From a virus, in IMG/VR virus record IMGVR_UViG_3300021437_000018, positions 1 to 62,710 of that record: DNA of 62,710 nucleotides, one strand, 5' to 3'. Positions 7,436 to 62,710 of this stretch are shown here, piece after piece. Numbering within the stretch: position 1 is the first letter of the stretch; each line of letters starts with the position of its first letter. The translations under genes and the position numbers were made by a program. The notes beneath the pieces were generated by a model. The model saw only the letters and a list, made by a program, of their open reading frames with translations. It did no database searches and had not been told where the DNA came from.

Positions 7436-8064
7436 TGAGCGGAAATCCTCGCAATCCGACCCCTAACACTGATTCCAGATTGGCTCCGCTCGAGGATCGG
7501 CGAACGTGTAGGCATGTGCCACTGGAACCGTCGTTCGTTGACGAGATGGGTGAGGTGGCTGACGACATACGACAACTCGCTACAGATTTTGGCGCTCGCC
7601 CATACCGAGTCTTTTGCGTCGTGGTGTCTTGGACGGGGCGAGAGGTTGGCAGAGGGACGCAAGCCGTGTTGGCGGAGACTGAGTTGCTCCCGACGCCTCG
7701 GATCGATCTGACGTCGCTCCGATACGTAGTCACTTCGGGAGGGCGCACCGATGATGGATACACCAAGCTTTATGAAGTCTCTCCGCGCTACACAGAGGAC
7801 GACATTCATTCGCTGTTTTATCGGGACTTGCTTCCCGGTGAGCAAGCATTTGTTGAGGTACGAATGGATGCACGAGACGGGAGACAGCCCGTGCGACACC
7901 GACTCACAGTATCAGGCGTTCCTTTTCGTGACGCAGATGGGTTTCAATGGGTGGTGCCACTCAAAATCCAGCAAGAGGAGCGCAGTCGAGACGGGACACT
8001 TTCGGAGCGTCAGAAAACCACTGCAGTCCATCCACTGACGACTGGAATGCCGGTGGTGCCGTGA
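7435..8064 (+). CDS. Structural protein, probable head-tail joining
   Basis: 209 residues, beta-rich after the first ~45. Strands such as RPYRVFCVVVSWTGREVGRG and PGEQAFVEVRMDARDGR suggest a compact barrel. It sits between adaptor-like and gp10-like genes and is coupled to both (TGATG before, GTGA after), so head completion or stopper function is likely. No specific family is recognised. Confidence 0.55.
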   Translation: MSGNPRNPTPNTDSRLAPLEDRRTCRHVPLEPSFVDEMGEVADDIRQLATDFGARPYRVFCVVVSWTGREVGRGTQAVLAETELLPTPRIDLTSLRYVVTSGGRTDDGYTKLYEVSPRYTEDDIHSLFYRDLLPGEQAFVEVRMDARDGRQPVRHRLTVSGVPFRDADGFQWVVPLKIQQEERSRDGTLSERQKTTAVHPLTTGMPVVP

Positions 8065-8741
8065 GTCGCCAGATTACTGTTCGCGACTTCGCGCAGCTGA
8101 CCAAAGACTTGTCGCCCCAAGTCAACGCGGCGTGCATTCGCGGACTACGTTCGGCGGGGCTGCGGGGCGTTGGTGAGGTGGTGCGGCAGATCGACAATGC
8201 CGAGCCCTATCCTGGTGTTGACACGGGGGCCACTCGCCAGTCGGCCATTTGTGAACCTATTCCTGAGGGCGCAGAGCTGAGCGTGAACACGCCACAGGCG
8301 GCCTGGCTAGAGTTCGGCACGCGGCCTCACATGCCCCCGTTGGGGCCGATTCTGACATGGGTAACGCGCAAGTTTGGGCTGGGCATGGGTGGGCGGAGAG
8401 CCAAGAAAATTCGGGCGCGCAAAGCTGGCCCGAAGCCCCCTCCGATGCAGGGCCCGAAGGGGCCACCGAAGCATGGCCCCAAGGCGCCCTCCAAGCAGGG
8501 TCCGCGGCTGTCCAAATTCCACAAGGCGCAGCGGCGCAGCATGAAGCATGCGGCGCAGCAACAGGCGGATGCGGAGAACCTACGTAAAGCGCTGGCCATT
8601 GCGAACAAAGTGCGCTGGAAGATCGCCCACCACGGGACTGCTCCGCGTGGCTACTTCGCCAAGTCCATGGTGACGATCCGCACGAAATACGCACCAAGAG
8701 AAATTCGGCACGAGCTAAAAGCCCTAGAAAAGAGGCTCTGA
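8061..8741 (+). CDS. HK97 gp10-like head-tail joining protein
   Basis: 226 residues from GTG 8061, which overlaps the previous stop as GTGA. The core PQAAWLEFGTRPHMPPLGPI (~75-95) is the hallmark of gp10-like/tail-completion proteins, where an EFGT-x-PHxPP segment follows a helical N-terminus. Residues ~115-150 are a low-complexity Gly-Pro-Lys/Gln insert (GPKPPPMQGPKGPP), absent from typical members and possibly a flexible loop. The C-terminus is basic and helical. It joins head and tail during assembly. Confidence 0.7.
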   Translation: MSRQITVRDFAQLTKDLSPQVNAACIRGLRSAGLRGVGEVVRQIDNAEPYPGVDTGATRQSAICEPIPEGAELSVNTPQAAWLEFGTRPHMPPLGPILTWVTRKFGLGMGGRRAKKIRARKAGPKPPPMQGPKGPPKHGPKAPSKQGPRLSKFHKAQRRSMKHAAQQQADAENLRKALAIANKVRWKIAHHGTAPRGYFAKSMVTIRTKYAPREIRHELKALEKRL

Positions 8742-8872
8742 TGGCGTTTGACTCTAAGAAAATCAAGATGGATCCGAAACCGCTCGCGAAGACCAAGGGC
8801 AAGTCGCCCGGAGTAGCCTTGCCGCCTCTGAAGAAGTCCAAAATCGACCCCAAGAAGATCAAGGGGTTCTGA
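8741..8872 (+). CDS. Small Lys-rich protein (43 aa)
   Basis: 43 residues, MAFDSKKIKMDPKPLAKTKG followed by more Lys/Pro and ending KKIKGF. The ATG overlaps the upstream stop (CTGATG) and the stop lies 3 nt before the next gene, so it fills the gap exactly. KKIKMDP and KKSKIDPKKIKG look like a duplicated motif. The strong positive charge suggests binding to DNA, RNA or an acidic virion protein. Function unknown. Confidence 0.6.
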   Translation: MAFDSKKIKMDPKPLAKTKGKSPGVALPPLKKSKIDPKKIKGF

Positions 8873-8875
8873 TCG

Positions 8876-9571
8876 ATGGCGCTTGGTGACCTGCTAGCTC
8901 CCGTTGGACTGCGGCGAATGCCTCTGGCTTCGCCTCGGGCCATGGCTCCGCGCGACGCGGCAGCAGCGGCGCTGGCAGAGTACCTACGCAAGGCGGTCTG
9001 GTTCATCCCCGCGACAGACCCGGCAGAGAACGTGAACTTCTCGCTCACTTCAGTGCTTGAGGAGTGGCCGAACGAGGACGAGGAGCTGAACCAGCCTTGC
9101 GCTGCCATCACGACGATCACGGAAGAGCGGCAGGCCCACAACTTCGTGCCGACTATCCTCGAGTCGACTTGGAATACCTACGGCACCGGGACGGTGTTGT
9201 GGAAGACCGACGAGTGCGAGATCCTTTTTCAGGTCGACTTTTGGATCACCAACAAGGCTGAGCGCCAAGCTATCGAGGCCGGATTGTCCGAGTACTTCGC
9301 GCCTGAAGAGGGGCGCTGGGGGATCATGCTCGAGGGGCCCGCCGCCTATTGGTCGCAGCCGATTCGGTTCTATTTGCAGCGAATCGATGGGCATAAGCGC
9401 ATGGATGATTCAGATCTGGTGCTTGGCCGCGATCGAAAGCTATTGGTACGACTAATCGCGCAGATTGATGATTTGCAGTTGCGACGCGCTAGTGAGCTAA
9501 ATCCGCAAGTGCGGCTGTCGGTCAATGATGGCCCAAGCGAACTTGTCTTCCCGCGGCCTGCGGGATCCTGA
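8876..9571 (+). CDS. Tail terminator/completion protein
   Basis: 231 residues. An N-terminal helix (DAAAAALAEYLRKAVWF) is followed by an alternating alpha/beta region (ECEILFQVDFWITNKAERQAIE), the pattern of tail-tube terminator proteins that cap the tail and contact the head. It lies directly before the sheath gene. Assignment rests on fold pattern and order. Confidence 0.6.
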   Translation: MALGDLLAPVGLRRMPLASPRAMAPRDAAAAALAEYLRKAVWFIPATDPAENVNFSLTSVLEEWPNEDEELNQPCAAITTITEERQAHNFVPTILESTWNTYGTGTVLWKTDECEILFQVDFWITNKAERQAIEAGLSEYFAPEEGRWGIMLEGPAAYWSQPIRFYLQRIDGHKRMDDSDLVLGRDRKLLVRLIAQIDDLQLRRASELNPQVRLSVNDGPSELVFPRPAGS

Positions 9572-12267: not shown

Positions 12268-12304
12268 ATCAGGCATAGTGGCTATTGCCACGGCGCAGCA
12301 GCAA

Positions 12305-12340
12305 GAGGCTCCGGGGATCCCCTCGGGGCCCTTTGCTTTT
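12305..12340 (+). terminator. Rho-independent terminator after tail tube gene
   Basis: GGCTCCGGGG (12307-12316) and CCCCTCGGGGCC (12319-12330) form a GC-rich stem with G-U pairs and a short loop, followed by CTTTGCTTTT. Outer arms GCAGCAA and TTGCTGC extend the pairing. It separates sheath-tube from the less abundant chaperone and tape-measure genes. Confidence 0.75.
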
Positions 12341-12383
12341 CATGGTTGCTGCGTCGCTGGCCTCTAAACCATGGAGAGCCACA

Positions 12384-12938
12384 ATGTCAGTAGAAAAGAA
12401 CAGACCGAAGCGCAACGCAGCCGAAACAGTCATGACCGAGGGCGTCGAGCCGCCAGTAGAAGCCCTGGCGCCGTTGGTCGCCCCAAAGCCCCAGTTACTC
12501 AATGAGGATCCGAACCTACTCGCGAAACTGTTCGAGGCCTTCACGCCCACGGGTAAGGCCGCGCTGACGGACAAGCCATTGCTGCCGGTGCGCACGGTGA
12601 CTTTTACCGTCGACGGCGCGGAATGCGCTCCCGGTGTGTTTGTCGACGTAAATGGCGATTACTTCGATTTCCAGCTCACCATGCGTAGCCTCGACAGTGC
12701 GCAGGAAATGGCGACTCTCGATTCGGTGACGGGCTCTGGGCACACGGTGCCTCCGCTCATGTCTCGAGCGATGTTGTATAAAATGAACGGGGCGATCATC
12801 ACTCCACGCCAGCGCGAATGGCTTTGGGAGGCGCTCGACATGCGCGGGCGGCAGCTCTGTTTCGTTGCCTATCAGCAGATGGGCGGGGCGTCGGCGGCAG
12901 CTCTGGGAAAATTCCGAGCAAGCTTTACGATCGGCTGA
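12384..12938 (+). CDS. Tail assembly chaperone, short form (gpG-like)
   Basis: 184 residues from ATG 12384 (GGAGAG upstream; an ATG at 12285 would read through the terminator). Residues ~65-170 contain VTFTVDGAECAPGVFVDVNG and QREWLWEALDMRGRQLC, compatible with chaperones that bind the tape measure. It lies between tube and tape measure, and a slippery heptamer near its 3' end allows a longer product, the classic two-protein arrangement. Confidence 0.75.
   Translation: MSVEKNRPKRNAAETVMTEGVEPPVEALAPLVAPKPQLLNEDPNLLAKLFEAFTPTGKAALTDKPLLPVRTVTFTVDGAECAPGVFVDVNGDYFDFQLTMRSLDSAQEMATLDSVTGSGHTVPPLMSRAMLYKMNGAIITPRQREWLWEALDMRGRQLCFVAYQQMGGASAAALGKFRASFTIG
12905..12911 (+). promoter_or_regulatory. 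-1 frameshift slippery site G GGA AAA
   Basis: In the chaperone frame the codons read CTG GGA AAA, giving the X XXY YYZ heptamer G GGA AAA. Slippage by -1 lets ribosomes enter an open frame that runs to 13177. The lambda G/GT site is GGGAAAG. No strong downstream hairpin is obvious, also as in lambda. Confidence 0.8.
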
Positions 12939-13177
12939 GGTCTCGAGTCTATGCCCCGTTGGCGCTGCAAATTGCGTGGTGCCTGGCGTGGAGCAAGATA
13001 GGTACCGAAAGGCCCCTGCGTGAGCTCTGGTCGCGGATAGCGTACGCCACGAGGTACGGGCGGATCACACTCACGGAAGCGGTAGAGCTTGACCAATGGC
13101 AACTGAACCGGTTCCTCGTGGCGCTCAACGAATTGGTGCGCCAAGAGAACGGCCCGGCCGGATCGCACGAAAAGTAG
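12911..13177 (+). CDS. Frameshift extension of tail assembly chaperone (T domain of gpGT-like fusion)
   Basis: Read in the -1 frame after AAA at 12909-12911, this adds 88 residues (IPSKLYDRLRSRVYAPLALQ onward, ending GPAGSHEK), making a ~264-residue fusion. The segment has no good start of its own; the nearest, at 12818, lies in the overlap without a ribosome-binding site. In known phages the G:GT ratio is set by slippage efficiency and GT recruits tube protein to the tape measure. The extension is helical and ends just before the tape measure gene. Confidence 0.75.
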   Translation: MPSKLYDRLRSRVYAPLALQIAWCLAWSKIGTERPLRELWSRIAYATRYGRITLTEAVELDQWQLNRFLVALNELVRQENGPAGSHEK

Positions 13178-19023: not shown

Positions 19024-20259
19024 ATGTTTCGGATCGACCAAACCGGCTTGCCCACGGGTACCATTGACCGGTCGCGCACAGATGGGCTGCTAACAGGCGC
19101 CCAGGTGACGTTGACTTATTTTGGCAGCGGCACATTTAGACCACGATTTCTGTGGGTGCCTCCCGGCGACACGGGGTCGATCGCATCGCTTGCGCAGGTA
19201 ACTGCCGGAGTGTGGACATTTACTCCAAGTGCAGGATTTCCAGGCACTTATCGCATTGAGGAAATCGAAAACGAGGGAAAACCAAACGAAGCGCGAAGAG
19301 TTCGCTTGTTTCGTGTGCGGACGGCTGCCGGGCTAATTATCCCGGCGCCAAACGAAACTGCGAATCACTTGGCAAATCTCGCGAATGCCACGGTAACTCA
19401 TGTTGCGCAGTCAGAGGACAATGCAACAGATTACGCAAATGCGCTGCTCAACAACTATCCATGGACTGGATGGTGGCGTGCATGGGCGGAGATGATTGCT
19501 ATTGCCGATTCCTCTCTCGCAATGAGGTGGCGTTCGGTTATGAATATCGACTTTACCAATGTCGGCAACGTGACATTTCCAGCGGATGGTACTTATACGA
19601 TCGGTGGGCACTCCTTCGTATTTGTCGGTTTCACTGGGCTACAAAGCTCCAGTTTTCCATGGGCGATTCTTTCCACTGTTGGGTTACGCGCTCGAGCAAA
19701 TGCTTCCGGCGTTTCTTACGCTGGCGCTGATGCTCCGCGGTTGGTGTGGAATGGCACAAATCTACGAGATCTTGCCCCGACCCGAGTTCGCTTACGTTAC
19801 GGCAGCAGTGGCGGTTCAACGATCGAAACGTTGCTCATGGCACAATGGGAAGAAGGGCAGACGTATTGTGGCGTCGGGGGATACACCTCGGCAGGATACG
19901 GCTTCGATCACTATTCGATGTACCGTGTTTCGGGCGGCACATCGACGCCGGTGGCCTCGAACGTGGATATTGGCGCACCATCATCTGCAGGGAATGGCGA
20001 CAACCTGGGACTCACTATGCCAGGCGGGGCGCATCCGTTGCGACCCCTGGTGTTAGATATAGGAAATGGGGCATTGGCTGCCGGCGACTCCTATATTCCC
20101 CGGGAAATTCGCTTGAGTTCGGGGGATGGGTATACCGTGAATCGGTACAGCAACACCCGTTCGAGCCAGGCAAAGATTGTCATCTGTCCACAATTCGCGA
20201 CTCACAACACAACAGCCGCAATCGTGTATCTTGGGATGCTGGTTGAGCAATATTACTGA
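19024..20259 (+). CDS. Putative tail fibre/virion surface protein
   Basis: 411 residues. The N-terminal ~100 residues form a beta domain (QVTAGVWTFTPSAGFPGTYR resembles a carbohydrate-binding or Ig-like strand pattern). A helical linker follows, then a Gly/Ser/Tyr-rich C-terminal region (GGYTSAGYGFDHYSMYRVSG) typical of exposed fibre domains. It starts a run of large surface proteins. A host-recognition role is inferred from composition and position. Confidence 0.55.
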   Translation: MFRIDQTGLPTGTIDRSRTDGLLTGAQVTLTYFGSGTFRPRFLWVPPGDTGSIASLAQVTAGVWTFTPSAGFPGTYRIEEIENEGKPNEARRVRLFRVRTAAGLIIPAPNETANHLANLANATVTHVAQSEDNATDYANALLNNYPWTGWWRAWAEMIAIADSSLAMRWRSVMNIDFTNVGNVTFPADGTYTIGGHSFVFVGFTGLQSSSFPWAILSTVGLRARANASGVSYAGADAPRLVWNGTNLRDLAPTRVRLRYGSSGGSTIETLLMAQWEEGQTYCGVGGYTSAGYGFDHYSMYRVSGGTSTPVASNVDIGAPSSAGNGDNLGLTMPGGAHPLRPLVLDIGNGALAAGDSYIPREIRLSSGDGYTVNRYSNTRSSQAKIVICPQFATHNTTAAIVYLGMLVEQYY

Positions 20260-20266
20260 GGAATTC

Positions 20267-23200
20267 ATGGCCACATTTTCGCTATCTTGCGTCGTTGGAT
20301 CGGTACATCCCGGTTTGGAATTGCAGGTTGCAAAGGGCGATTCTCTGGCGATCAATCTGCGACTGCAGACAATTCAAGGCACCACCTATGACGCTCGCGG
20401 GGCCGTGATCTATTTTGCCTGGGAACAAGATCGAGAGCCATCTGGACCGCCACGAATGCTGGCGTTGCCAGGCAATTTGCAGGGCAATGCTACATTCGTT
20501 GTCTCGGCGAAAGACTGCTGGTACTTCACGCTGGCGCAATTTTGGTGGGATGCGTGGATAGTGCTTGCGGACGGCACCAAGATCCAACTGGTCCCGCGCA
20601 GGCGTATTGTTGCGCTGCAGGCAGTCGGTCCAATTACAGTGGATGACGCTCCGAGCGGACTTGAGCCCGTTCCTTTGCCGCTGCAGCAGACCGTCGAAAT
20701 CGCGGGTGTACTAGACCTGCCAGGCAACACTGCGCCTCTACCAGCTCCGGCTCCCGTACGCTGGTACTACGCAGGCGAATTCGTTGTGCGTTTGGCTCTG
20801 GCGCAACTGCAAACGACGACAGGATATCCGGACTCGGGGGCCGTTGGGACTCTGTACGTAGGGCGCAACGGCAGCCCCATCGGTGCACCAATCCCGATGG
20901 TCCAAGGCACTGCCGAGGAGGGTACCGAGGGTATCTTTATCGCGCGCATCGACGCCGCTCATCAGGCTCTCGTGTCCGAGGGCGACACGATCACCTACCA
21001 GGCTTGGGTGCGCCCGACCGATCAGGCTGAGTACGCCGCCCATGAACAGGGCGAGGTCGCATTGATCCCATCGGGTAAGCCAATCAATCAGCCCCCTACC
21101 ATCGTGCTTGCTGCCATCCCTGCGCAGGTGGTGCCGGGAGCGCTCGCGCTGTCGATCGCTGCTAGTGATCCAGATGGCACTCTGACAGCAGACTCTTTCG
21201 CTCTGCTCGTCAATGGCACTCCGACTCCGGCCACATTTGCTCTGACTAATGGCAGCTCGTGGACGACGAGCGTCACGCTCGCCACGCTCGGGGCCATGTC
21301 CCTGTCGGTGGTCGTGACGGACTCTCTCGGCAGCTCGGTGACGGCCACGCGCAGCACGGTCGTGGTCACTCCTGCAGTCGAGATCACAGCGGACACTCCC
21401 CAGGACGTGGGCGCGGTGACGACGCTCGTGACTGTTACTCCGGCGCCGCCGAACGGCACGGCCGTGACCATCCTGGAGGGCACCACGACCCGAGGCAGTG
21501 GCGTGCTGACCAATGGTGCCGCTGCCGTGGCGACGTCTGCTCTTGGAGTTGGCACTCACGCCCTGACTGCCCGCATCATGACCCTCGCAGGAGCGGTCGT
21601 TAGCCCCGCAGTCAACGTCGACGTCGTGGCGGTGGCACCGGTGGTGGACATCACCACGCCGTCCGGCACGGTCACGATCGGGCAGAGCTACGCCATCACG
21701 GCTAGCGTGACCATCGCCACGGGCGGCACGATCGCGTCTGTGCAATACCGCGTCGGTGGCACGGGCAACTGGGCCTCGATGACGCACGGGTCAGGGTCTA
21801 CATGGACGGCGTCCTGGACCCCCGCCGAGCCGGGCGAGATTACGGTCGAGGTGCGCGCCACCGATGGCGGCTCCCCTGCTACGACGACTACATCCAGTGA
21901 GACCGTCACCGCCGAATACTTGACTCTTGCGTGGGGTCCGCTCACGTTTGCTGGCGCGTCGATGTACGCAGAGACGGACGCCCCGTCTACCGCGGCGCCG
22001 CTCACTGTGCACTTCGCACTAGATGACGCGATCGACGGGTGTACCATCTTGATGCGCGTGCCCGTGGGTCCGACTGATCTGCTGCTCGACGTTCCGGAGG
22101 GCTGGAAAGTCTGGCAAAACGCGCGCATCGTGTCACCGATTGACACCGAGTTCCCGGCGGCTCTGCCGTGGGTGCCCGGGTGCGCATGCGACTTTCTCTT
22201 GCAGATAGATTCCGCGGCTCACCGGATTCACTGGTCGAGCAAGAGGTACACTCCGGCTATCGAAGGGTACATCACGAGGCACTGGCCGCTGCACGATGAC
22301 GGAGCGGCGTACACTGCCGCCGGCAACCCCGTGCTCGCAGACGACGCCGTGCGCGCTGGCGGTGGGCCACTACTCTCCGGTGATTTCGGGCCAGACCCAA
22401 ACGCAACTATCGGTGGCGTGTCGGTCGATACCGAGGAGCGAGGCAATGTGTTCTTGCGCCCTGCATGGGCACGGCTGCCGTGCACGTCGACGACGACCAA
22501 GTACTCTATCAGCTGGCGCATGCGTGCACCCTGCATGCGGACGATCACGGGTGACTCGGGGGCCACGTCATTCTTGGCGACGACCAATGGGGGCGACTGC
22601 GTTTTCGGTTTCCTCGGAGGTTCGCCCTTCGATGAGGATGGCAATAAACACCTAGCTTTTGCCAATGTTTTCGAGGGAAATCCGGCGTTTCCTCACATTC
22701 GCCGAAAGGTCGCGTACCCGACGTACTACGACACGCGAGACGGGTATTCTCTCGGGTCACTGATCGGCGTCACTAGTCTCAATGGCACTGAGTACGACGG
22801 TTGGGCCACGTTCGCTATTGTCGCGGACGGAACCATCGGCAAGATCTACGTCAACGGGATGCTGCGCGCGACGGGCACGATCATCGCGCACTCTTTGGCA
22901 CAGGGGTTTTACCTCGGCGTGGCCAATGGCGATTTCGGGGACGTGCCCGCGGGCGGTGCTCAGTACTGCGACATCGTGTATTACGACGGCGTGTGGACCG
23001 ATGCGCAGGTCGCGGCTATCTGCACCCAAACGAGATCGATCGCGAAGGCCGCTCGCCATCCGTCGTCGAACATACTCGTCGAAGGAGTGCACGGATCGTC
23101 GCAGGCGAACAGCGGCAATGCGCAGGAGGTACGAGTCAACCACCCGACGTGGACTGTCACGGACGTGCGCATCATCACGGGCATCGACGACAGCCCGGAA

Positions 23201-23803
23201 AAGCTGGCGATGACGCTATCGATTTGCGCTGCCAAGGACCTGGTCGTCCCTATCCGCGTGGACTGCGGAATGGTCTGGAATCAGTCGGGAGGAACACCCG
23301 AGGGCAATGCAGATCGACTCTTCAACGAATGCGTGCGAATGATCCAGCGCAATGGCTGCATTCCGTTGGCAGGTACATTCTCGGGGCATAACGATCCAGC
23401 GGCATCGGGGCCGTACACTGCGACGCGCATCCGTGCGCAGGCGGACATCAATCTGAACAAGTACGCGCTATGTATCTCTCGGTACGATCTGCTCGAAGCA
23501 GAGGTGTCACTGCCGGACGGCACGGGCACCGCCGGCCCTCTCGGCGTTTCGAGCACGTACTACAATGAGGCGCCTATTCCCGGTGGGTCCGTCGAGGCAG
23601 GGCCTCACATGGGCCCGAGGCAGCCACGTACGTTCGCGAGCGATCCAGGTGGTCAATACCAGTGGCCCAATGGGACGCCCGAGAATCCGTGCGCTGGCGT
23701 GACACTTTGGGAGTTGATCTTCGAGCAGTCGTGCAAGCACTGGATGATCAACACTGGGATCGGTGGGTCTAATACGAGCTGGTACCCGCCCCCTTTAGAC
23801 TAG
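20267..23803 (+). CDS. Large tail fibre with Ig-like and LamG-like domains
   Basis: 1178 residues from ATG 20267 (GAGGAATTC upstream). The N-terminal ~140 residues resemble a baseplate attachment domain (SLAINLRLQTIQG). Residues ~280-580 hold several Ig-like repeats (PPTIVLAAIPAQVVPGALAL; APVVDITTPSGTVTIGQSYA). Residues ~660-930 look LamG-like, and the rest carries an unfamiliar domain (EVRVNHPTWTVTDVRIITG). It should bind host surface sugars. It ends one codon after a CCCTTTA slippery site followed by a strong hairpin, so a fraction may be extended into the next frame. Codon use shifts to richer GC than the neighbouring 19024 gene, hinting at modular exchange. Confidence 0.75.
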   Translation: MATFSLSCVVGSVHPGLELQVAKGDSLAINLRLQTIQGTTYDARGAVIYFAWEQDREPSGPPRMLALPGNLQGNATFVVSAKDCWYFTLAQFWWDAWIVLADGTKIQLVPRRRIVALQAVGPITVDDAPSGLEPVPLPLQQTVEIAGVLDLPGNTAPLPAPAPVRWYYAGEFVVRLALAQLQTTTGYPDSGAVGTLYVGRNGSPIGAPIPMVQGTAEEGTEGIFIARIDAAHQALVSEGDTITYQAWVRPTDQAEYAAHEQGEVALIPSGKPINQPPTIVLAAIPAQVVPGALALSIAASDPDGTLTADSFALLVNGTPTPATFALTNGSSWTTSVTLATLGAMSLSVVVTDSLGSSVTATRSTVVVTPAVEITADTPQDVGAVTTLVTVTPAPPNGTAVTILEGTTTRGSGVLTNGAAAVATSALGVGTHALTARIMTLAGAVVSPAVNVDVVAVAPVVDITTPSGTVTIGQSYAITASVTIATGGTIASVQYRVGGTGNWASMTHGSGSTWTASWTPAEPGEITVEVRATDGGSPATTTTSSETVTAEYLTLAWGPLTFAGASMYAETDAPSTAAPLTVHFALDDAIDGCTILMRVPVGPTDLLLDVPEGWKVWQNARIVSPIDTEFPAALPWVPGCACDFLLQIDSAAHRIHWSSKRYTPAIEGYITRHWPLHDDGAAYTAAGNPVLADDAVRAGGGPLLSGDFGPDPNATIGGVSVDTEERGNVFLRPAWARLPCTSTTTKYSISWRMRAPCMRTITGDSGATSFLATTNGGDCVFGFLGGSPFDEDGNKHLAFANVFEGNPAFPHIRRKVAYPTYYDTRDGYSLGSLIGVTSLNGTEYDGWATFAIVADGTIGKIYVNGMLRATGTIIAHSLAQGFYLGVANGDFGDVPAGGAQYCDIVYYDGVWTDAQVAAICTQTRSIAKAARHPSSNILVEGVHGSSQANSGNAQEVRVNHPTWTVTDVRIITGIDDSPEKLAMTLSICAAKDLVVPIRVDCGMVWNQSGGTPEGNADRLFNECVRMIQRNGCIPLAGTFSGHNDPAASGPYTATRIRAQADINLNKYALCISRYDLLEAEVSLPDGTGTAGPLGVSSTYYNEAPIPGGSVEAGPHMGPRQPRTFASDPGGQYQWPNGTPENPCAGVTLWELIFEQSCKHWMINTGIGGSNTSWYPPPLD

Positions 23804-23857
23804 CCGCGGGTACGGCACTGGGAGCGTCATCGAGCGCGGCTCTCCCGGTACCCGCGG
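23791..23857 (+). promoter_or_regulatory. Predicted -1 frameshift signal: C CCT TTA heptamer plus hairpin
   Basis: In the fibre frame the last codons read CCC CCT TTA GAC TAG, so 23791-23797 is C CCT TTA, matching X XXY YYZ. After a 6-nt spacer, CCGCGGGTAC (23804-23813) pairs perfectly with GTACCCGCGG (23848-23857); inside, GGGAG (23820-23824) pairs with CTCCC (23842-23846). Heptamer, spacer and stable stem are the three canonical parts of a -1 signal. Confidence 0.7.
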
Positions 23858-25080
23858 TTGGAGCAGGCTCGGTCACTGTCTACGGCTGGGTGCTGCTACC
23901 CGAGTCTCCTTCGGACGGCACTGCTCTCACGATTGACTCGAGTCAGGCGCTCATCTATCTCGAGTACTCGGCAGGCGCGGGACGTTGGCACCTGGTGCAC
24001 GGGTGGGGCGCCGCCGAAGTGTTGATGATGGGGCCCGAGGACGGATGGTGCTTCGTCGCGCTCGTCTACTCGACGATAGAGCTGCGCGCGTACTATCGGC
24101 GCGAGGAGATCGTCAATCTCGCAGAGTGCACACCCGTGTCGTGGACGTACGACGATAGCCTTGCGGCCATCCTGCTGACGGGGTGGGCAGGCTGTGCAGT
24201 GCAATACTGGGGGTGCCATGTCGGAGCACTCACCCCCGCGCAGCTGCTGGCGCAGAGCCAGTCCCGCACGCAGCTCGTCGCTGGGCGCAGCTACTGGCGA
24301 CTTGATGAGGCATCCGGTGCGGACCTCGTGGGCAATCACGCAGCCACGCTCGTTAGCGCGACGGCTCACACGGAGACAGCACCGGCCGAGGCCGTCACGG
24401 TTGATGAGGCGCTGTCGGCGCTGCTCTACAAGGATTCGTTCTCGCGCAACTACGCCGAGATTTCGACGGCGCCGTTCCCCGGCGCGGTGACGGTGTGTGG
24501 ATGGTTCCGGTTCGGGAACATGACGCACAATTCGTACGTCTTCGAGTTTCGGATCAACGATGACAATCGGCTGATATTCGTGCTGCAGCACGATGCCGAC
24601 ACCACCGGCATGTATACGAATTTGATGTCCTACCTCGATAGCGATCTGATCGAGCCGTGCGGTGGGTATCATGAGCCGACGGTGACACTCGAGCAGACCA
24701 CAGGATGGTGGTTTGCCGCGTGGACGATCGTGCCTGGCGAGACGACCACAACGGCGCGCGTCTGGCTAGCGCCACACGGCACGACTCTGACCGAGGTCGA
24801 CGCCGCTACCCCGACGTGGCCGCACGTGCATGCGGGTAGCTACGCCACACGACTGGTCGTCAGCAACGGAGGCCCCGAATTCGAAGGGGCACACCTGCGC
24901 CTGTTCGAGGGCGCGTTGACCGAGGGTCAGCTAGCGTCCCTAATGGCTTCGAGTGCCGCCCAGCCGACGGCGTGGGCGGACTACTCGCTCGCGAGCGGGT
25001 CACTGCTGGATCGATCTGGACACGCTCGAAATCTGACCACACCCGGAGAAATTTGGCCGGGAGAATTGGGGCCGCTATGA
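23797..25080 (+). CDS. Frameshift-dependent C-terminal extension of tail fibre (LamG-like)
   Basis: In the -1 frame this is open from 23773 to 25080 and adds 427 residues to the fibre, for ~1604 total. The only ATG/GTG starts usable early are GTG 23890, without a ribosome-binding site, yet codons before it (GAGSVTVYGWVLLPES) look like the first strand of a LamG/concanavalin-like domain that continues after it. A second similar domain starts near residue 175 of the extension (FPGAVTVCGWFRFGN). High-GC codon use matches the upstream fibre. If not frameshifted, it could be a gene broken by an indel or a product of weak GTG initiation. Confidence 0.65.
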   Translation, partial: RLAAGTALGASSSAALPVPAVGAGSVTVYGWVLLPESPSDGTALTIDSSQALIYLEYSAGAGRWHLVHGWGAAEVLMMGPEDGWCFVALVYSTIELRAYYRREEIVNLAECTPVSWTYDDSLAAILLTGWAGCAVQYWGCHVGALTPAQLLAQSQSRTQLVAGRSYWRLDEASGADLVGNHAATLVSATAHTETAPAEAVTVDEALSALLYKDSFSRNYAEISTAPFPGAVTVCGWFRFGNMTHNSYVFEFRINDDNRLIFVLQHDADTTGMYTNLMSYLDSDLIEPCGGYHEPTVTLEQTTGWWFAAWTIVPGETTTTARVWLAPHGTTLTEVDAATPTWPHVHAGSYATRLVVSNGGPEFEGAHLRLFEGALTEGQLASLMASSAAQPTAWADYSLASGSLLDRSGHARNLTTPGEIWPGELGPL

Positions 25081-30657: not shown

Positions 30658-30998
30658 GAAATGGGACAGGGCGTTCCCTGGCTTTCGTTGCCCTCCTGGG
30701 CGTACTGTCGCTCGCGCCAGATTGTGGTGGCAGCAACCCTACCCCTCTGCCGCCGACGACCCTTGGTGGGGCGACTGGGCAGGGCGGAAGCGGCCCCATT
30801 GGCTCCGCGTGCCAGCAGGCGCAATGGACGCTGGAGGCTCTCCGGTGTCCTGAGGCAACTACACCGCAAGGCACACCCTTCGCGGTGGTCTGTGATCGGG
30901 CGGCAGTAGATGGGCGAGACATGCATCCATCGTGCATTGCCAAAATTACAGCCTGTAGTGAGGTCGAAGCGGCCTATCGAGGGGAGCTCTGTCGATGA
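30654..30998 (+). CDS. Exported Cys-rich protein, probable lipoprotein
   Basis: 114 residues from GTG 30654 (GTGA overlap). The signal-like segment LAFVALLGVLSLAPDCGG may end at a non-canonical lipobox, followed by a Gly/Pro/Thr linker. The C-terminal domain has six spaced Cys (ACQQAQWTLEALRC, VVCDRA, PSCIAKITACSE, GELCR) that could form disulfides in the periplasm. No known activity. Two consecutive lipoproteins suggest a multi-part envelope function. Confidence 0.55.
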   Translation: MRNGTGRSLAFVALLGVLSLAPDCGGSNPTPLPPTTLGGATGQGGSGPIGSACQQAQWTLEALRCPEATTPQGTPFAVVCDRAAVDGRDMHPSCIAKITACSEVEAAYRGELCR

Positions 30999-31774
30999 TT
31001 CTATTTGCCACTGGGCGACAGCCACATAGTCCGCAACAGCTCGCGAATCTGCGCGAGAAACACGCTTACGTTGGCGCAGCCATTGTTGCTGAAACGATAG
31101 TGCAGCCCATTGCACGGATCCGGAATCAACGCTCGACGCCAAGTTGCGTGGGCCAGGCTTGTGCCGGCGCAATCCATGCGCTCATCGGTTTCGACGGCTC
31201 CGCGATCAATCTCTGGATCGATGCGCGACGCAGGCAAGGTGACATCGACAATCCCGATGATGGTACTACGGCGGAGACGGCGATCGAGTCCCTGATTGGT
31301 CGCGGCCTTGATCCGTATGAGGACGGAGAAGAAAGCCGTTCGGCTGCTGATTATTCGCAGATGCCAGCTCTCGCTGCCGAACTGGCAGCAGACGACCATC
31401 GAATCTCGCCGGTTGCTGAGCGCTACATCGTGACCGGTACGGTGGCGAAGCAACGTCTTGCCATTATTGAGGCGCTCAAGGCTGGACATGCGGTACTTTG
31501 GGCTACCGGCGTCAAGGATCCGTTCTTTGGCCTCACCTTCGATGCAGTGGCGGACTCCAACTTCATCGGCGCCGACTTCAATGGCCACGAGATGCGGATC
31601 GTTGGATACGATGCCACGTCGGATGAGTTTTTGATCCAAAACTCATGGGACAAAGATTGGTGCGGCTGCAATTTCCAGGGCGAGACGTACGCAGGTTGCT
31701 TCCGATGTCGCGCTGTCGATGCGATCGAATGTGCATGGGACACGATGGTGCTGCAGCTCAAGCCCGCGCCGTGA
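30995..31774 (+). CDS. Papain-like (C1) cysteine protease
   Basis: 259 residues. NQRSTPSCVGQACAGAIHA supplies oxyanion Gln45 and nucleophile Cys51; NGHEMRIVGYD supplies His198; FLIQNSWDKDWCG supplies Asn216. Order and spacing match papain-family peptidases, including the xNSWxxxWG-like motif (here WCG). There is no signal peptide or propeptide, so it may act in the cytoplasm, be carried in the virion, or reach the cell wall through lysis. Papain-fold enzymes cleave peptides or amides; in phages some act on peptidoglycan cross-links. It lies between lipoproteins and the amidase. Confidence 0.8.
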   Translation: MILFATGRQPHSPQQLANLREKHAYVGAAIVAETIVQPIARIRNQRSTPSCVGQACAGAIHALIGFDGSAINLWIDARRRQGDIDNPDDGTTAETAIESLIGRGLDPYEDGEESRSAADYSQMPALAAELAADDHRISPVAERYIVTGTVAKQRLAIIEALKAGHAVLWATGVKDPFFGLTFDAVADSNFIGADFNGHEMRIVGYDATSDEFLIQNSWDKDWCGCNFQGETYAGCFRCRAVDAIECAWDTMVLQLKPAP

Positions 31775-32055
31775 GCCACAAGGATTTACCGTCGTATCAG
31801 CGCATGCGAGCGCGAAAACGTGCCCGAGCGAAATGCCAGATTTGGGATCATCCACTCGGGCACAAAACTAAGCGATGTGGAGCGTGTCGCTTAGTGATTG
31901 GGCGCGAGCAATTTGATCGATGTTCGCATGCCTCAGATGGGTTGCAGGGGTATTGCAAGCAATGCATGCGGTTGCGTAGATATGGTGGCCACAGGGCTTG
32001 CGCAACTTCACGAAATATGACCCAATGCTCGCATGCCAGTCGGCGAACTTCGTGA
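31771..32055 (+). CDS. Zinc-ribbon protein, HNH/endonuclease VII-like N-terminus
   Basis: 94 residues from GTG 31771 (GTGA overlap). KRCGACRLVIGREQFDRC followed by DGLQGYCKQCMR is the CxxC-x(n)-F-x(n)-DG-x3-YCKxC module common at the start of phage HNH/endonuclease VII-like proteins. Here the nuclease part is missing, so it may be a truncated homing endonuclease or a stand-alone nucleic-acid binder. It is very basic. Confidence 0.55.
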   Translation: MSHKDLPSYQRMRARKRARAKCQIWDHPLGHKTKRCGACRLVIGREQFDRCSHASDGLQGYCKQCMRLRRYGGHRACATSRNMTQCSHASRRTS

Positions 32056-40099: not shown

Positions 40100-40480
40100 G
40101 TGGGAAGACCGAGGACCAAGTCGCGACGGCGCGAGACGCCGATCGTCAAGGTGGTTGGGAAAGTCCATGCCCTTGGCGAGCGGATCGCGTTGCGGTGTGC
40201 GGAACTTGGTCTGACCTACCTCGATTTGTCGGCTCGGCTCGGGTACGAGCGTCCAAACGGGCGGCATGTGGTTTTTTTTTCGATTGCGCAGACGGTCAAA
40301 TACGACCGTCTAGTGAGGCTCGCGCGCGCCCTCGAGTGGGATAGCCTGGCTCCATTTTTTGAGAAAATGCCTACATTTGAGGGCCAGACCCGGGCAGCGC
40401 TGAGAAAATGGGAAAAGAACATTGTCGCCACAAATGCGGGTGCTAGAGAATCGGCGCCGCCTCACAGCGGCAGAAAGTAG
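40100..40480 (+). CDS. XRE/Cro-like helix-turn-helix protein
   Basis: 126 residues from GTG 40100. A basic N-terminus (GRPRTKSRRRE) precedes an HTH region: ALGERIALRCAELGLTYLDL, SARLGYE and, after a divergent turn, KYDRLVRLARALEWDSLAPF, the usual end of XRE folds. A run of nine T (40272-40280) encodes part of VVFF in the recognition region. It lies directly upstream of MoxR and its stop is part of the AGAAAGTAG element, so it may regulate that operon. Confidence 0.65.
   Translation: MGRPRTKSRRRETPIVKVVGKVHALGERIALRCAELGLTYLDLSARLGYERPNGRHVVFFSIAQTVKYDRLVRLARALEWDSLAPFFEKMPTFEGQTRAALRKWEKNIVATNAGARESAPPHSGRK
40456..40480 (+). promoter_or_regulatory. Hairpin abutting AGAAAGTAG before MoxR gene
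   Basis: GCCGC (40456-40460), loop CTCACA, GCGGC (40467-40471), then AGAAAGTAG (40472-40480) and 4 nt to ATG 40485. The TAG is also the stop of the XRE gene. Third instance of the conserved leader structure. Confidence 0.6.
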
Positions 40481-40484
40481 CGAA

Positions 40485-41627
40485 ATGGCAAGTCTGCAAA
40501 GCAGGTTTCACGGGCTCGCGAACCAGCTCAAGGCCCAGTACTTCGAGCGTGATGCGATCGTGTCGGGCATGATGTGCGCGGCGATAGCAGGGGAGCACGT
40601 CTTGTTATTGGGGGAGCCTGGTACGGCCAAGTCCGCACTGGTGCGTGGGTTCTGCGCTGGCTTCGGTGGGGCGAATTACTTCGAGTGGTTGTTGTCCAAG
40701 TACTCGGTACCCGAGGAGCTATTCGGGCCCCTGTCACTCGCAGAGCTCAAGCGCGGGGTCTATTCACGGGTGACTGTTGGCAAGTTGCCCGAGGCCGAGA
40801 TCGTGTTCTTGGATGAGATTTTCAAGAGCAATTCTGGTGTACTGAACAGCCTTCTGGCGGCGATCAACGAGCGCAAATTTCACGACGGTAACTCGGTCAA
40901 GACGATCCCGTTGCGGCTATGTGTGGGTGCGAGCAACGAGCTCCCCGAAGGCTCCGAGCTGGCTGCGCTTTACGATCGTTTTCTTGTGCGATATTGGGTT
41001 GATCCGATCAAGTCGCTCAAGTCCATGTCAGCTATGCTGGTTGCAGGCGACCAGTCGATCGGAGTGGCAGCGAGCCTCGCGGACTGGACGAAAGCTCAGG
41101 CGGAAGCCAAGCAGATTTGCTTTCCTGCGGTCGCGGTAGACGCTCTGCTTAGCCTCAAAGCCAAGGTTGAGGCTGACGGGGTGTCGGTGAGCGATCGGCG
41201 CTGGAAGCGCATCGTTGGGCTACTGCGGGCAAACGCCTGGCTATCTGAAGACACCGAGGTTTCAACGGACCATTTCGAGATCCTGGCAGATTGCCTCTGG
41301 TCGGATCCCGCAACTCGGACGCAGGTTGCCTCTCGAGTGTCCGACGTGGTCGGTTCGGCTGTGGCCACTTCGCGCAAGATCCTCGACATGCTCGTTGTCG
41401 CGCGAAATCAAGTGACAGCTCGCCCGACGGATCCGCAAGGCTTGGGAGATTGGCGCAAGCAATTGGTAACGCTTGGCACCGAGGCCACTGAAGCAGTGCT
41501 CAAATTGCAAGCAGAGGCCGAAAAGCAGTCGGGCCGCAAGCGCCAGAAAATCGAAGCGCTGGTAAAAGAAGGGCAGCAGCAGAAAGAGGAAATCCGAGCG
41601 ATGATTCGCGAGGGGATGGACTTCTGA
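40485..41627 (+). CDS. MoxR/RavA-type AAA+ ATPase
   Basis: 380 residues from ATG 40485. Walker A LLGEPGTAKS (41-50), Walker B EIVFLDEIFKSNSG (~106-118), GASNELPEGSELAALYDRFL with sensor 1 and arginine-finger region typical of MoxR/RavA. The C-terminal third is helical, ending in a basic coil (SGRKRQKIEALVKEGQQQKE). MoxR ATPases remodel or activate proteins together with VWA partners, and the next gene is such a partner, overlapping by one base. Unusual in a phage. Confidence 0.9.
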   Translation: MASLQSRFHGLANQLKAQYFERDAIVSGMMCAAIAGEHVLLLGEPGTAKSALVRGFCAGFGGANYFEWLLSKYSVPEELFGPLSLAELKRGVYSRVTVGKLPEAEIVFLDEIFKSNSGVLNSLLAAINERKFHDGNSVKTIPLRLCVGASNELPEGSELAALYDRFLVRYWVDPIKSLKSMSAMLVAGDQSIGVAASLADWTKAQAEAKQICFPAVAVDALLSLKAKVEADGVSVSDRRWKRIVGLLRANAWLSEDTEVSTDHFEILADCLWSDPATRTQVASRVSDVVGSAVATSRKILDMLVVARNQVTARPTDPQGLGDWRKQLVTLGTEATEAVLKLQAEAEKQSGRKRQKIEALVKEGQQQKEEIRAMIREGMDF

Positions 41628-43309
41628 TGGCCCAAGCAGTCACCTACAGCGGGATTACGGCTCGGCCAGTTGTGGGTCCAGATGGAAAGGTTTCGCATTG
41701 GATCGCGGACGGTGCGTCAATCCCTGCTGACCTGTTTGCTGTCCATGGAAAGGCGATGCTTGCCGCGAAGGCGAAAGGCGTTCCGTGGGTCCCGTCGCAA
41801 GCGCTTTCGAAGGTCAACGGTCGTCAAGTGTCCTTGGTTGAGAGCGTGGCTCACTTGCATGACGTCTTTTCCGACGGCAGAGACGTGGCTTACAAGGTGG
41901 ACGAGCAGACCCGGCAGGCTGCAGCGGCAGAGTTACAGCGCGGCGGCCAATTCGGCGAGGTCGTAGATGCGTTGGCTAACGAGAATTGGCCAGCACTGCC
42001 ACGGGAATTGTTCGCGCGGCTCCATGGGGACCCGGAACCACTCGAGCAGTGCCCCACGGGTGCTGACTGGGCAAAGGAACTGCACAAGGCAGCAGACGAA
42101 TCGGACGATTGGGATCGGCTGCGCACGCTCAGCCAAGGGGACTCGTGGGCAGCGGGGATCGGGGCAGCGGCGGTTGGGCGCAAGTTGATCGATGCCTTCG
42201 GGGATGCGTTGCGAGACCTGCCGCGAGAGGATCCGCAGAAACTTGAGGAGCACATTGACACGGCGGACGAAGCCTTGGGTCTGGGCGAAAAGGACACGCA
42301 GCGGGCCTTGGAATCGATGATCAACGAGGCAGCAGCGGCAGCGAATGCGTGCGAAGTCGTGGCCGATGCGATTGCCAAGAGTCCATCGAAGGCACTTCGA
42401 GCGATTGTCGCTGGGGCTAAGGAAGCTGTGCAGGAAATCAGCGAGACCTTGCAGGCTGTCACGGCCCTTGGTGTCGGGACCGAGCCGGGTCATCTGTCGC
42501 GGGTGACTGGTCCGCGCGAGGAAATCCTTCGGGCGTTGCGAGACGATCCAGCATTGCGAAGGATTGCCGTTCTGGCGGGGCGGCTCAAGGTGGCGGCTCG
42601 AGCGGCGCAGCGTTCCAAATCGAGGTACGTCCCGGAACAAATCGTGGACGTCACGTTGGGCGGGGAGATCTCGCGCCTGCTTCCCTCCGAGCTGGTTTCG
42701 TTTGCTGTCCCCGAGCTGGAGCTATTGGGGCTCAAGCGCTTGGCCGAGCGGCAATGTCTTGAGTATTCGTTTGCGGGCACCGAGCGAAAAGACCGCGGCC
42801 CACTGGTGCTGTGCGTGGATGAGTCTGGATCGATGAAAGGCGCACCGCATGAATTCGCCTGTGCCGTGGGGCTGGCCCTGCTCGAGATTTGTGCAATGCA
42901 GCGACGAGCATTTGCCTATTTGCACTTTGATTCTACGGTCTCGCGCGAATGGATTGTCGAGAATCCGGCCAAGCTCAAGTTTGCCGACTTTCTGGCGGAA
43001 GTGTCGTATTTCTCCGGCGGCGGAACCAACTTCGAGCCGCCGCTGAAACGTGCGACCGAGTTGATTGCCGGTAGCTCGGCGGCCTTGGTTGACGCTGACG
43101 TGATGCTGCTTACGGACGGGGCGGCCACTTGGGGCACCGACAAAACCGACGCGGTCGCTACCCTGGGGCAGCTTGGGGCGCGATTGTGGGGCGTAGAGAT
43201 CGGCGGTTGTTTTTCGGTTGAGCAGAGCAAGGCAATGGCCGGTAAGTTTTCATTGCAGCCCGGCCTTGTCGGGGCAACCGTTCAAATTGAACTTGCTTTT
43301 GGGTTATGA
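41627..43309 (+). CDS. VWA-domain protein, ViaA/CoxE-like partner of MoxR
   Basis: 560 residues. The N-terminal ~380 residues are largely helical, with a segment resembling VWA-partner proteins (LSQGDSWAAGIGAAAVGRKL). The VWA domain has a full MIDAS: DESGSM (~397-402), GGGTNFEPPL for the threonine, and LLTDGAA for the distal aspartate. Such proteins bind MoxR ATPases and a client. The pair mirrors bacterial RavA-ViaA. Client unknown. Coupled by TGATG to MoxR and ATGA to the next gene. Confidence 0.85.
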   Translation: MAQAVTYSGITARPVVGPDGKVSHWIADGASIPADLFAVHGKAMLAAKAKGVPWVPSQALSKVNGRQVSLVESVAHLHDVFSDGRDVAYKVDEQTRQAAAAELQRGGQFGEVVDALANENWPALPRELFARLHGDPEPLEQCPTGADWAKELHKAADESDDWDRLRTLSQGDSWAAGIGAAAVGRKLIDAFGDALRDLPREDPQKLEEHIDTADEALGLGEKDTQRALESMINEAAAAANACEVVADAIAKSPSKALRAIVAGAKEAVQEISETLQAVTALGVGTEPGHLSRVTGPREEILRALRDDPALRRIAVLAGRLKVAARAAQRSKSRYVPEQIVDVTLGGEISRLLPSELVSFAVPELELLGLKRLAERQCLEYSFAGTERKDRGPLVLCVDESGSMKGAPHEFACAVGLALLEICAMQRRAFAYLHFDSTVSREWIVENPAKLKFADFLAEVSYFSGGGTNFEPPLKRATELIAGSSAALVDADVMLLTDGAATWGTDKTDAVATLGQLGARLWGVEIGGCFSVEQSKAMAGKFSLQPGLVGATVQIELAFGL

Positions 43310-54962: not shown

Positions 54963-55071
54963 AATTTGCAGAACTCAACGATATGGCTAGGTTACGAATG
55001 ACGAAAAGGCGAGCAAAAACGCTCACATGAGCTACACTATTTCTGAGGCGCAAGCTTCAGAAAGGCTGAAA

Positions 55072-55920
55072 ATGAACGTAACCGAAATCAACTGGACGGA
55101 GCTGACGTGGAACCCGGCGTCTGGCTGCAAGAAGCTGAGTGCCGGCTGCAAGTACTGCTACGCCCACGGGATTGCTGAACCTAAGCGTGGTACGGCAGCT
55201 TTCCCGGTCGGATTCGATGTGATGTTGAGGCCATGGAAGCTCGGTGAGCCAGCGAAGGTGAAGCGCCCGAGCCTCATTTTCACGAACTCGATGACAGACA
55301 TGTTTCTCGACGAGATTTCTGACTCGTATCGGGACCAGATTTTGGATGCCATGGCGAACGCGTCGCATCATCGATATCAGGTACTGACTAAGCGTCCAGA
55401 GATTGCTGCCCGCTACTTCGCGACTCGCAAAGTGCCAGACTACCTCTGGCTCGGGACCACTGTGGAGCATCAGGCTACGGCGCATCGCATTGAAACGCTG
55501 AAGTCAATTGACGCGAAAGTGCGCTACGTGTCGGCTGAGCCTCTGCTTGGACCAATCGTAGCTGACTTGGTTGGGATCCACTGGTTGATTTCCGGAGGTG
55601 AGTCAGGAAACCATCTCATGCGCCCCAATGTTTGCACCGAGCGCGCGCTGGTGCGCCGAGGTGGGGCCGGAGAATCCACTTGGGTTGCACGAGACGATCG
55701 TATGGACTGGGTTCGCGGACTTCGCGACCAATGCCAACGTGACAACGTGGCATTCTGGCACAAGCAATGGGGCGGCTCGAAGGGATTTCTTGCTGGTCGT
55801 CTGCTCGATGGGCGGACTTGGGACGAAATGCCGCGTGTCCCCGGTGCTATGCCGGCGGCCTATAAGCACAAGGCAGCGTCTGCTAAACCGGTGCGACAGG
55901 TTTGCTTGCCGCTTGTTTGA
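55072..55920 (+). CDS. DUF5131 / phage Gp37-Gp68 family, radical-SAM-like
   Basis: 282 residues. ATG 55072 is chosen (AGAAAGG upstream) because the family begins just before its IxWTxxTWNPxxGC motif, here INWTELTWNPASGC. The cysteines GCKKLSAGCKYCYAH form a C-x6-C-x2-C cluster. FTNSMTDMFLDEIS and HRYQVLTKRPE are also family-typical. These are radical-SAM-like proteins of unknown substrate. The gene converges on and overlaps the minus-strand methyltransferase by 38 nt. ATG 55027 is an alternative start. Confidence 0.8.
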   Translation: MNVTEINWTELTWNPASGCKKLSAGCKYCYAHGIAEPKRGTAAFPVGFDVMLRPWKLGEPAKVKRPSLIFTNSMTDMFLDEISDSYRDQILDAMANASHHRYQVLTKRPEIAARYFATRKVPDYLWLGTTVEHQATAHRIETLKSIDAKVRYVSAEPLLGPIVADLVGIHWLISGGESGNHLMRPNVCTERALVRRGGAGESTWVARDDRMDWVRGLRDQCQRDNVAFWHKQWGGSKGFLAGRLLDGRTWDEMPRVPGAMPAAYKHKAASAKPVRQVCLPLV

Positions 55921-62232: not shown

Positions 62233-62710
62233 CGCAACTCAAGCGATGGGACACGGGAGCGGTAATCTACGAGGGTGAGGGCGCGATTGCTGAACTGGTG
62301 GCAGCGACCCAAAAATTCGGGATCTCCAAATTCAGGGCCAACCTGTGCGGGGCCAACCTGCGCGAGGCCGACCTGCGCGGGGCCGACCTGCGCGGGGCCA
62401 ACCTGCGCGGGGCCAACCTGTGCGAGGCCAACCTGTGCGAGGCCGACCTGTGCAGTGCCAACCTGCGCGAGGCCAACCTGTGCGGGGCCAACCTGCGCGA
62501 GGCCGACCTGTGCAGTGCCAACCTGCGCGAGGCCGACCTGTGCGGGGCCGACCTGTGCAGTGCCAACCTGCGCGGGGCCGACCTGTGCGGGGCCAACCTG
62601 CGCGAGGCCAACCTGTGCGGGGCCAACCTGCGCGAGGCCGACCTGTGCAGGGCCAACCTGCGCGAGGCCGACCTGTGCGGGGCCGACCTGTGCAGTGCCA
62701 ACCTGTGCGG
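62229..62710 (+). CDS. Pentapeptide-repeat protein (truncated at window end)
   Basis: ATG 62229 overlaps the macrodomain stop (ATGA). After ~36 residues ([20 protein letters not shown] then a helix) come 25 visible pentapeptides of form A-(N/D)-L-(C/R)-(G/E/S/R), running off the right edge. Such repeats build a right-handed square beta-helix; some (Qnr, MfpA) mimic DNA and bind gyrase. The near-invariant Cys/Arg face is unusual. Coupling to the macrodomain suggests a shared function. Confidence 0.85.
62337..62710 (+). repeat. 15-bp tandem repeat array coding pentapeptides
   Basis: About 25 copies of a GCCAACCTGTGCGGG-like unit with limited variation, mostly at two or three positions. DNA-level identity is far higher than structure requires, implying recent expansion. 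The window ends inside it. Confidence 0.9.

Follow-up and report, generated by a model that had tools for sequence, protein, structure and literature searches.

A candidate -1 frameshift site between two reading frames of a putative phage adhesin

In the baseplate region of a viral genome a long reading frame (ORF1) overlaps at its 3' end with a second one (ORF2) that is open in the -1 frame, the shared stretch comprising 31 nt (23773–23803). This raises the question of whether the two frames encode one protein and, if so, whether they are connected by programmed -1 frameshifting or belong to one gene that was broken by a single-base indel. The sequence, an IMG/VR record of an uncultured virus with 62,710 bases, was analysed over its entire length (the window) and follows the gene layout of a contractile-tail phage (Table 1). 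Between the spike region and the gp25-like gene lie a gene at 19024 and then the ORF1/ORF2 unit. The label "tail fibre" for this unit is suggested by its position within the baseplate cluster and by its Ig-like and LamG-like domains.

Table 1. Positions of the candidate frameshift elements, the two reading frames and the genes used for orientation in the window.
Feature	Position	Strand	Basis or remark
Major head protein	4907
Tail-assembly-chaperone heptamer G_GGA_AAA	12905..12911	+	-1 extension to 13177
Putative tape measure	13198		position
Hub-like protein	15134
Spike-like gene	18115		position
ORF1, zero-frame adhesin / tail-fibre-like protein	20267..23803	+	ORF list; ATG 20267, 1178 aa
ORF2, -1 frame	23773..25080	+	open for 435 codons, 427 from 23797
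GGTACCCGC, repeat of a section of the 3' stem arm	23781..23789	+	other copy 23847-23855
Candidate slippery heptamer C_CCT_TTA	23791..23797	+	in ORF1 phase, two codons before the stop
6-nt spacer GACTAG	23798..23803	+	last 3 nt are the zero-frame TAG stop (23801-23803)
Stable stem-loop, candidate frameshift stimulator	23800..23861	+	folding
Laminin_G_3 (PF13385) match in ORF2, residues 9-99	23821..24093	+	Pfam
gp25-like gene	25077
Baseplate J	25857
Large terminase	53436
Portal	57646

Other parts of the window also show recognizable features. The gene at 19024–20259 has a conserved N-terminal part of ~165 aa (37–62% in the relatives) and a variable C-terminus, an anchor-plus-variable-adhesin layout adjoining the cassette. 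Downstream of the baseplate genes a gene for a papain-like cysteine protease (30995–31774; Peptidase_C1, E 7.5e-4, slightly below the curated cut-off) is followed by an Amidase_2 gene at 32033. At 40422–43309 a bpMoxR-type AAA ATPase (E 1e-60) is followed by a VWA protein, forming a MoxR-vWA pair of the phage lineage that is syntenic and conserved in four relatives (G040, G053, G067, G069). A DUF5131 / phrog_2045 gene at 55027–55920 is located between terminase and portal and was found at 68 viral loci with up to 62% identity. Since most of these loci have little else in common with the phage, it appears to be a cargo gene of wide distribution; relatives reached through it have DUF5131 in common with the phage but lack the fibre. 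The end of the record (~62600–62710, plus strand) reads as pentapeptide-like repeats.

ORF1 consists of an N-terminal part, Ig-like domains, a LamG-like domain and a C-terminal region of 247 aa and unknown fold. Pfam matches were obtained to Big_7 (E 5e-6), Big_3_5 (E 9e-4) and, weakly, Laminin_G_3. Its start codon is preceded at a distance of 5 nt by the SD-like motif GAGG and its product ends with ...SWYPPPLD. Structure prediction by AlphaFold2 without alignment yielded no usable models (pLDDT 34 and 40), which leaves an SGNH-like assignment of the C-terminal region unsupported. By eye, a first LamG strand might be read in the ORF1 tail (HWMINTGIGG...); this is suggestive only, and the Pfam match leaves the region uncovered.

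ORF2 contains a Laminin_G_3-like domain and a second, similar-looking LamG-like unit which, taken alone, is below detection. With 26.9 bits (E 6e-6 for the whole protein) the domain scores slightly under the gathering cut-off of 27.6 bits, and ORF2 is therefore LamG-like without formal membership in PF13385. A preliminary description of this locus had counted 427 open codons in the -1 frame, which corresponds to the stretch from 23797 to 25080, and had described the frame as beginning mid-domain and lacking a usable start. Both statements agree with our results. No ATG, GTG or TTG is present in ORF2 before the GTG at 23890, and the Laminin_G_3 match begins upstream of this codon and vanishes if the protein is started there. 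Upstream of GTG 23890 SD-like matches do not exceed 3 nt and none of the candidate starts in 23773–23900 has a well-placed motif of this kind, whereas most other gene starts that we checked show an SD match of at least 4 nt. ORF2 is, in short, a coding -1 frame without a start of its own, as is characteristic of -1 frameshift extensions. ORF callers would split this locus into two proteins and let the second begin falsely at 23890, with part of its domain cut off.

We then compared the coding properties of both frames. Frame-specific coding potential passes from frame 0 to frame -1 around 23780–23840 and the coding bias of ORF2 remains strong through all 427 codons with no decay. In synonymous codon usage ORF2 is closest to the 3' half of ORF1 among the gene segments compared (r=0.93), the values for the gene before and the gene after being 0.44 and 0.59, respectively. 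GC3 amounts to 0.71–0.75 within the unit and to 0.54 on either side. In the related genome G064, which is 52–75% identical in most neighbouring proteins, the entire unit (20267–25080) is missing and the gp25-like gene directly follows the homologue of the 19024 gene, indicating that the unit is gained and lost as a single cassette. Taking together the switch of the coding frame, the codon usage, the LamG match ahead of any start and the absence of the cassette in G064, we conclude that ORF1 and ORF2 very probably represent one adhesin unit written in two frames.

No homologue of ORF1/ORF2 came up at the given sensitivity among 50,697 phage records or in the viral and genome contigs. The contig scans match a handful of exact peptide words for each query and can therefore miss distant relatives. 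ORF1 also had no homologue among 72,556 plasmids. Alignments of terminase, capsid and baseplate J recovered eight syntenic relatives, none of which carries ORF1/ORF2; they have other adhesins or nothing at the locus. As no homologue was found, conservation of heptamer and hairpin cannot be shown. Within the 34 kb of window coding sequence that is matched by proteins of the relatives we found no frameshift, thus indels are not common in this record. Apparent frame jumps relative to G064 at 7947–9184 turned out to be antisense mirror ORFs and not broken genes.

At the end of ORF1 the codons read CCG (23786), CCC (23789), CCT (23792), TTA (23795), GAC (23798) and TAG (23801). The slippery heptamer reported in the preliminary description is thus present in the sequence and in phase, and this X_XXY_YYZ motif lies inside the overlap of the two frames. 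In-frame X_XXY_YYZ motifs with Y = A/T occur at 20 of 15,193 codon positions, which gives a chance of about 1% for finding one in phase at the 8 positions of the overlap. Among the 1605 codons of ORF1 and ORF2, TTA is used only once, in the heptamer. In E. coli C_CC.U_UU.A is among the motifs that shift above 0.1% without a stimulator, the efficient set being H_HH.U_UU.Y and V_VV.A_AA.R (PMC4066793). C_CCU_UUA is outside this most efficient bacterial class because the A-site tRNA on UUA would re-pair with UUU in a non-cognate manner (rule from PMC4066793); this rule singles out efficient sites but is no definition of frameshift sites in general. The junction itself consists of a C5 run followed by T3, and one extra base in the C5 run would place both frames in a single one.

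The region downstream of the heptamer can form a pronounced hairpin. CCGCGGGTAC (23804–23813) pairs perfectly with GTACCCGCGG (23848–23857), and this 10-bp stem, the 5' arm of which begins 6 nt past the heptamer, is the one noted in the preliminary description, whose sequence details all proved correct. Folding of 23798–23865 results in a hairpin that is longer but imperfect (12 bp, 5-nt bulge, 8 bp, 3 bp), of -38.5 kcal/mol with a z of -3.5 versus dinucleotide shuffles. Equally good folds are found in about 0.13% of 68-nt windows on the same strand. The window has 12 start points of perfect 10-bp stems, corresponding to about 0.1% for a spacer range of 5 positions. The z of -3.5 could be taken as decisive evidence; comparison with synonymous recodings of the same peptide reduces it to p 0.04–0.07, since 3.6% of the recodings also yield a 10-bp stem at this place and the folding energy reaches z -1.6 (p 0.067). 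An RNA structure 5–9 nt 3' of the heptamer is accordingly present and goes only marginally beyond synonymous recodings. The hairpin is largely a by-product of the Ala/Gly/Pro-rich, GC-rich coding stretch. Searches for terminators, promoters and Rfam elements gave no matches for the hairpin, and these assignments were rejected.

Part of the 3' stem arm is repeated: the 9-bp sequence GGTACCCGC has only two copies in the window, which are 66 nt apart and flank the junction, and a partial reverse complement is located between them at 23806–23813. The upstream copy could pair with this reverse complement, resulting in an alternative hairpin that carries the heptamer in its loop. Two mutually exclusive hairpins are therefore a structural possibility at this site.

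The genome contains another -1 frameshift site, of the lambda-type G/GT kind, in the tail-assembly-chaperone pair (12285–13177), in which an 88-aa -1 extension ends just before the putative tape-measure gene. Six relatives (G064, G058, G053, G067, G050, G061) have G_GGA_AAA at the corresponding position close to the end of the gene. This conserved -1 shift suggests that the hosts of the lineage support -1 shifting. Both sites have a heptamer near the end of the zero-frame gene with a -1 open frame behind it. They differ in that the chaperone heptamer lies several codons before the stop and is conserved, whereas C_CCT_TTA lies two codons before the stop and was found once. ORF1/ORF2 itself is not a lambda-type chaperone pair, being located between the spike-like and gp25-like genes. 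When the window and 11 related records were scanned for in-frame heptamers near gene ends plus a -1 extension, the fibre site ranked first both in the length of the gene preceding a start-less extension and in the stability of the fold behind the heptamer.

Based on these data we propose that -1 frameshifting at C_CCT_TTA adds two LamG-like domains to ORF1, a reading in which we have moderate confidence and which we favour over a one-base indel. Most ribosomes would stop at the TAG and release the 1178-residue protein. A minority would slip back by one base on the heptamer, the tRNAs on CCT and TTA re-pairing with CCC and TTT, and this slippage would be aided by pausing at the hairpin. The product of slipped ribosomes would be 427 residues longer and carry LamG-like (concanavalin A-like) sugar-binding domains, with the junction peptide ...SWYPPPL-RLAAGTAL... 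The upstream copy of GGTACCCGC, when paired with the 5' arm, may keep the heptamer looped until the ribosome melts the pairing. Slippage and its efficiency, the entry of both forms into the virion and the binding of host glycans by the LamG-like domains, as well as the two fibre lengths per virion predicted in the preliminary description, are inferences. The joint chance of heptamer and stem is about 1e-5 to 4e-4 if no correction is made for the large number of junctions that could have been picked, and these values favour programming over a random indel. Our confidence is reduced by the indel-prone run, the weak motif, the lack of conserved copies and a hairpin that fails to reach significance against the fairest null model. 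The fusion proposed in the preliminary description thus holds well with respect to one adhesin in two frames, and the programmed shift is the single most likely explanation; its hairpin is weaker evidence than it seems at first sight. The weights that we give to the readings here and below are judgements and not computed posteriors.

The strongest competitor, which we regard as a serious possibility though not the likeliest one, is a single adhesin gene broken by a one-base indel, either through a sequencing or assembly error or through a genuine mutation that arose recently in the population sampled. What looks like a slippery heptamer would then be no more than the homopolymer run that lost a base. 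Slippage or sequencing errors are typical of a spot such as this one, with C5 and T3 runs ahead of a strong GC-rich hairpin, and domains, composition and codon usage continue over the junction as they do in a single gene. The site is conserved in no relative and, given what it encodes, the hairpin stands out only mildly. However, the coding sequence matched by related proteins contains no other frameshift and the second frame runs through its whole length without decay. An indel furthermore requires neither an in-phase X_XXY_YYZ (about 1% chance) nor a 10-bp stem at the right spacing (0.1–4%).

It is improbable that ORF2 is a separate gene which is translationally coupled to ORF1 and has its own, possibly non-AUG start, e.g. 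CTG 23779 or CTG 23818. Such an arrangement would agree with the 31-nt overlap with the end of ORF1 and has a parallel in the relative G067, in which a LamG-like protein at the same locus is encoded independently, from an ATG of its own that closely follows a stop codon. However, the lack of ATG, GTG and TTG ahead of 23890, the loss of the LamG match (from 23821) in a protein starting there and the absence of a well-placed SD-like motif in 23773–23900 speak against it. The G067 gene was also considered as a second case of a LamG frameshift and rejected, as its ATG follows the TGA and the overlap contains no in-phase heptamer.

Slightly more improbable still is an untranslated remnant: ORF2 would be what is left of a former C-terminus after recombination, with the hairpin and the GGTACCCGC repeats as scars. 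The cassette is missing or different in all relatives and the 9-bp repeat flanks the junction, both of which fit a recombination event. The strong coding bias over 427 codons speaks against a remnant, and a recent event would still be required. Stop readthrough and +1 frameshifting were rejected, because ORF2 is in another frame and a +1 shift immediately meets the TAG at 23796.

Phage capsid and tail-tube proteins are known to gain domains, mainly Ig-like ones, by frameshifting. If programmed frameshifting takes place at the ORF1/ORF2 junction, LamG-like domains would replace Ig-like domains and an adhesin would replace the capsid or tube protein in the known -1 scheme. Frameshifting would set how many receptor-binding proteins bear lectin domains, which would tie recoding directly to host range and provide recoding-based receptor-binding diversity in a fast-changing adhesin cassette. 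We tentatively suggest that LamG-like lectin domains on a fraction of the adhesin copies give two binding repertoires per particle or among the progeny. The probable origin would be a LamG module that recombined out of frame into this cassette.

As a precedent the preliminary description had referred to Listeria phage PSA. Frameshifting indeed lengthens structural proteins of this phage, at a proline codon close to a stop codon or a pseudoknot. The PSA shifts at CCC_UGA and ACA_CCC are, however, +1 shifts (PMC5009743), and at the locus described here a +1 shift ends at TAG 23796. Better precedents are T3, A2 and A118, in which -1 frameshifts add Ig-like domains to structural proteins (reviewed in PMC5009743). 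For frameshift-expressed Ig-like domains in phages out-of-frame non-homologous recombination has been proposed as the origin (PMC5009743), and the variable cassette observed here fits this model. T3/T7 gene 10B, the Lactobacillus phage A2 capsid and the Listeria A118/A500 coat protein resemble ORF1/ORF2 in having a short zero-frame form and a -1 extension that adds a domain of carbohydrate-binding type, the modules being thought to have recombined out of frame. Unlike these proteins, ORF1/ORF2 is a putative adhesin of the baseplate region, known from its sequence, in which Ig-like domains are present already. Its extension of 427 residues is LamG-like, and homologues of the unit were not found. 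The link to Laminin_G_3 (PF13385) / concanavalin A-like domains is given by the match in ORF2 and the weak match in ORF1.
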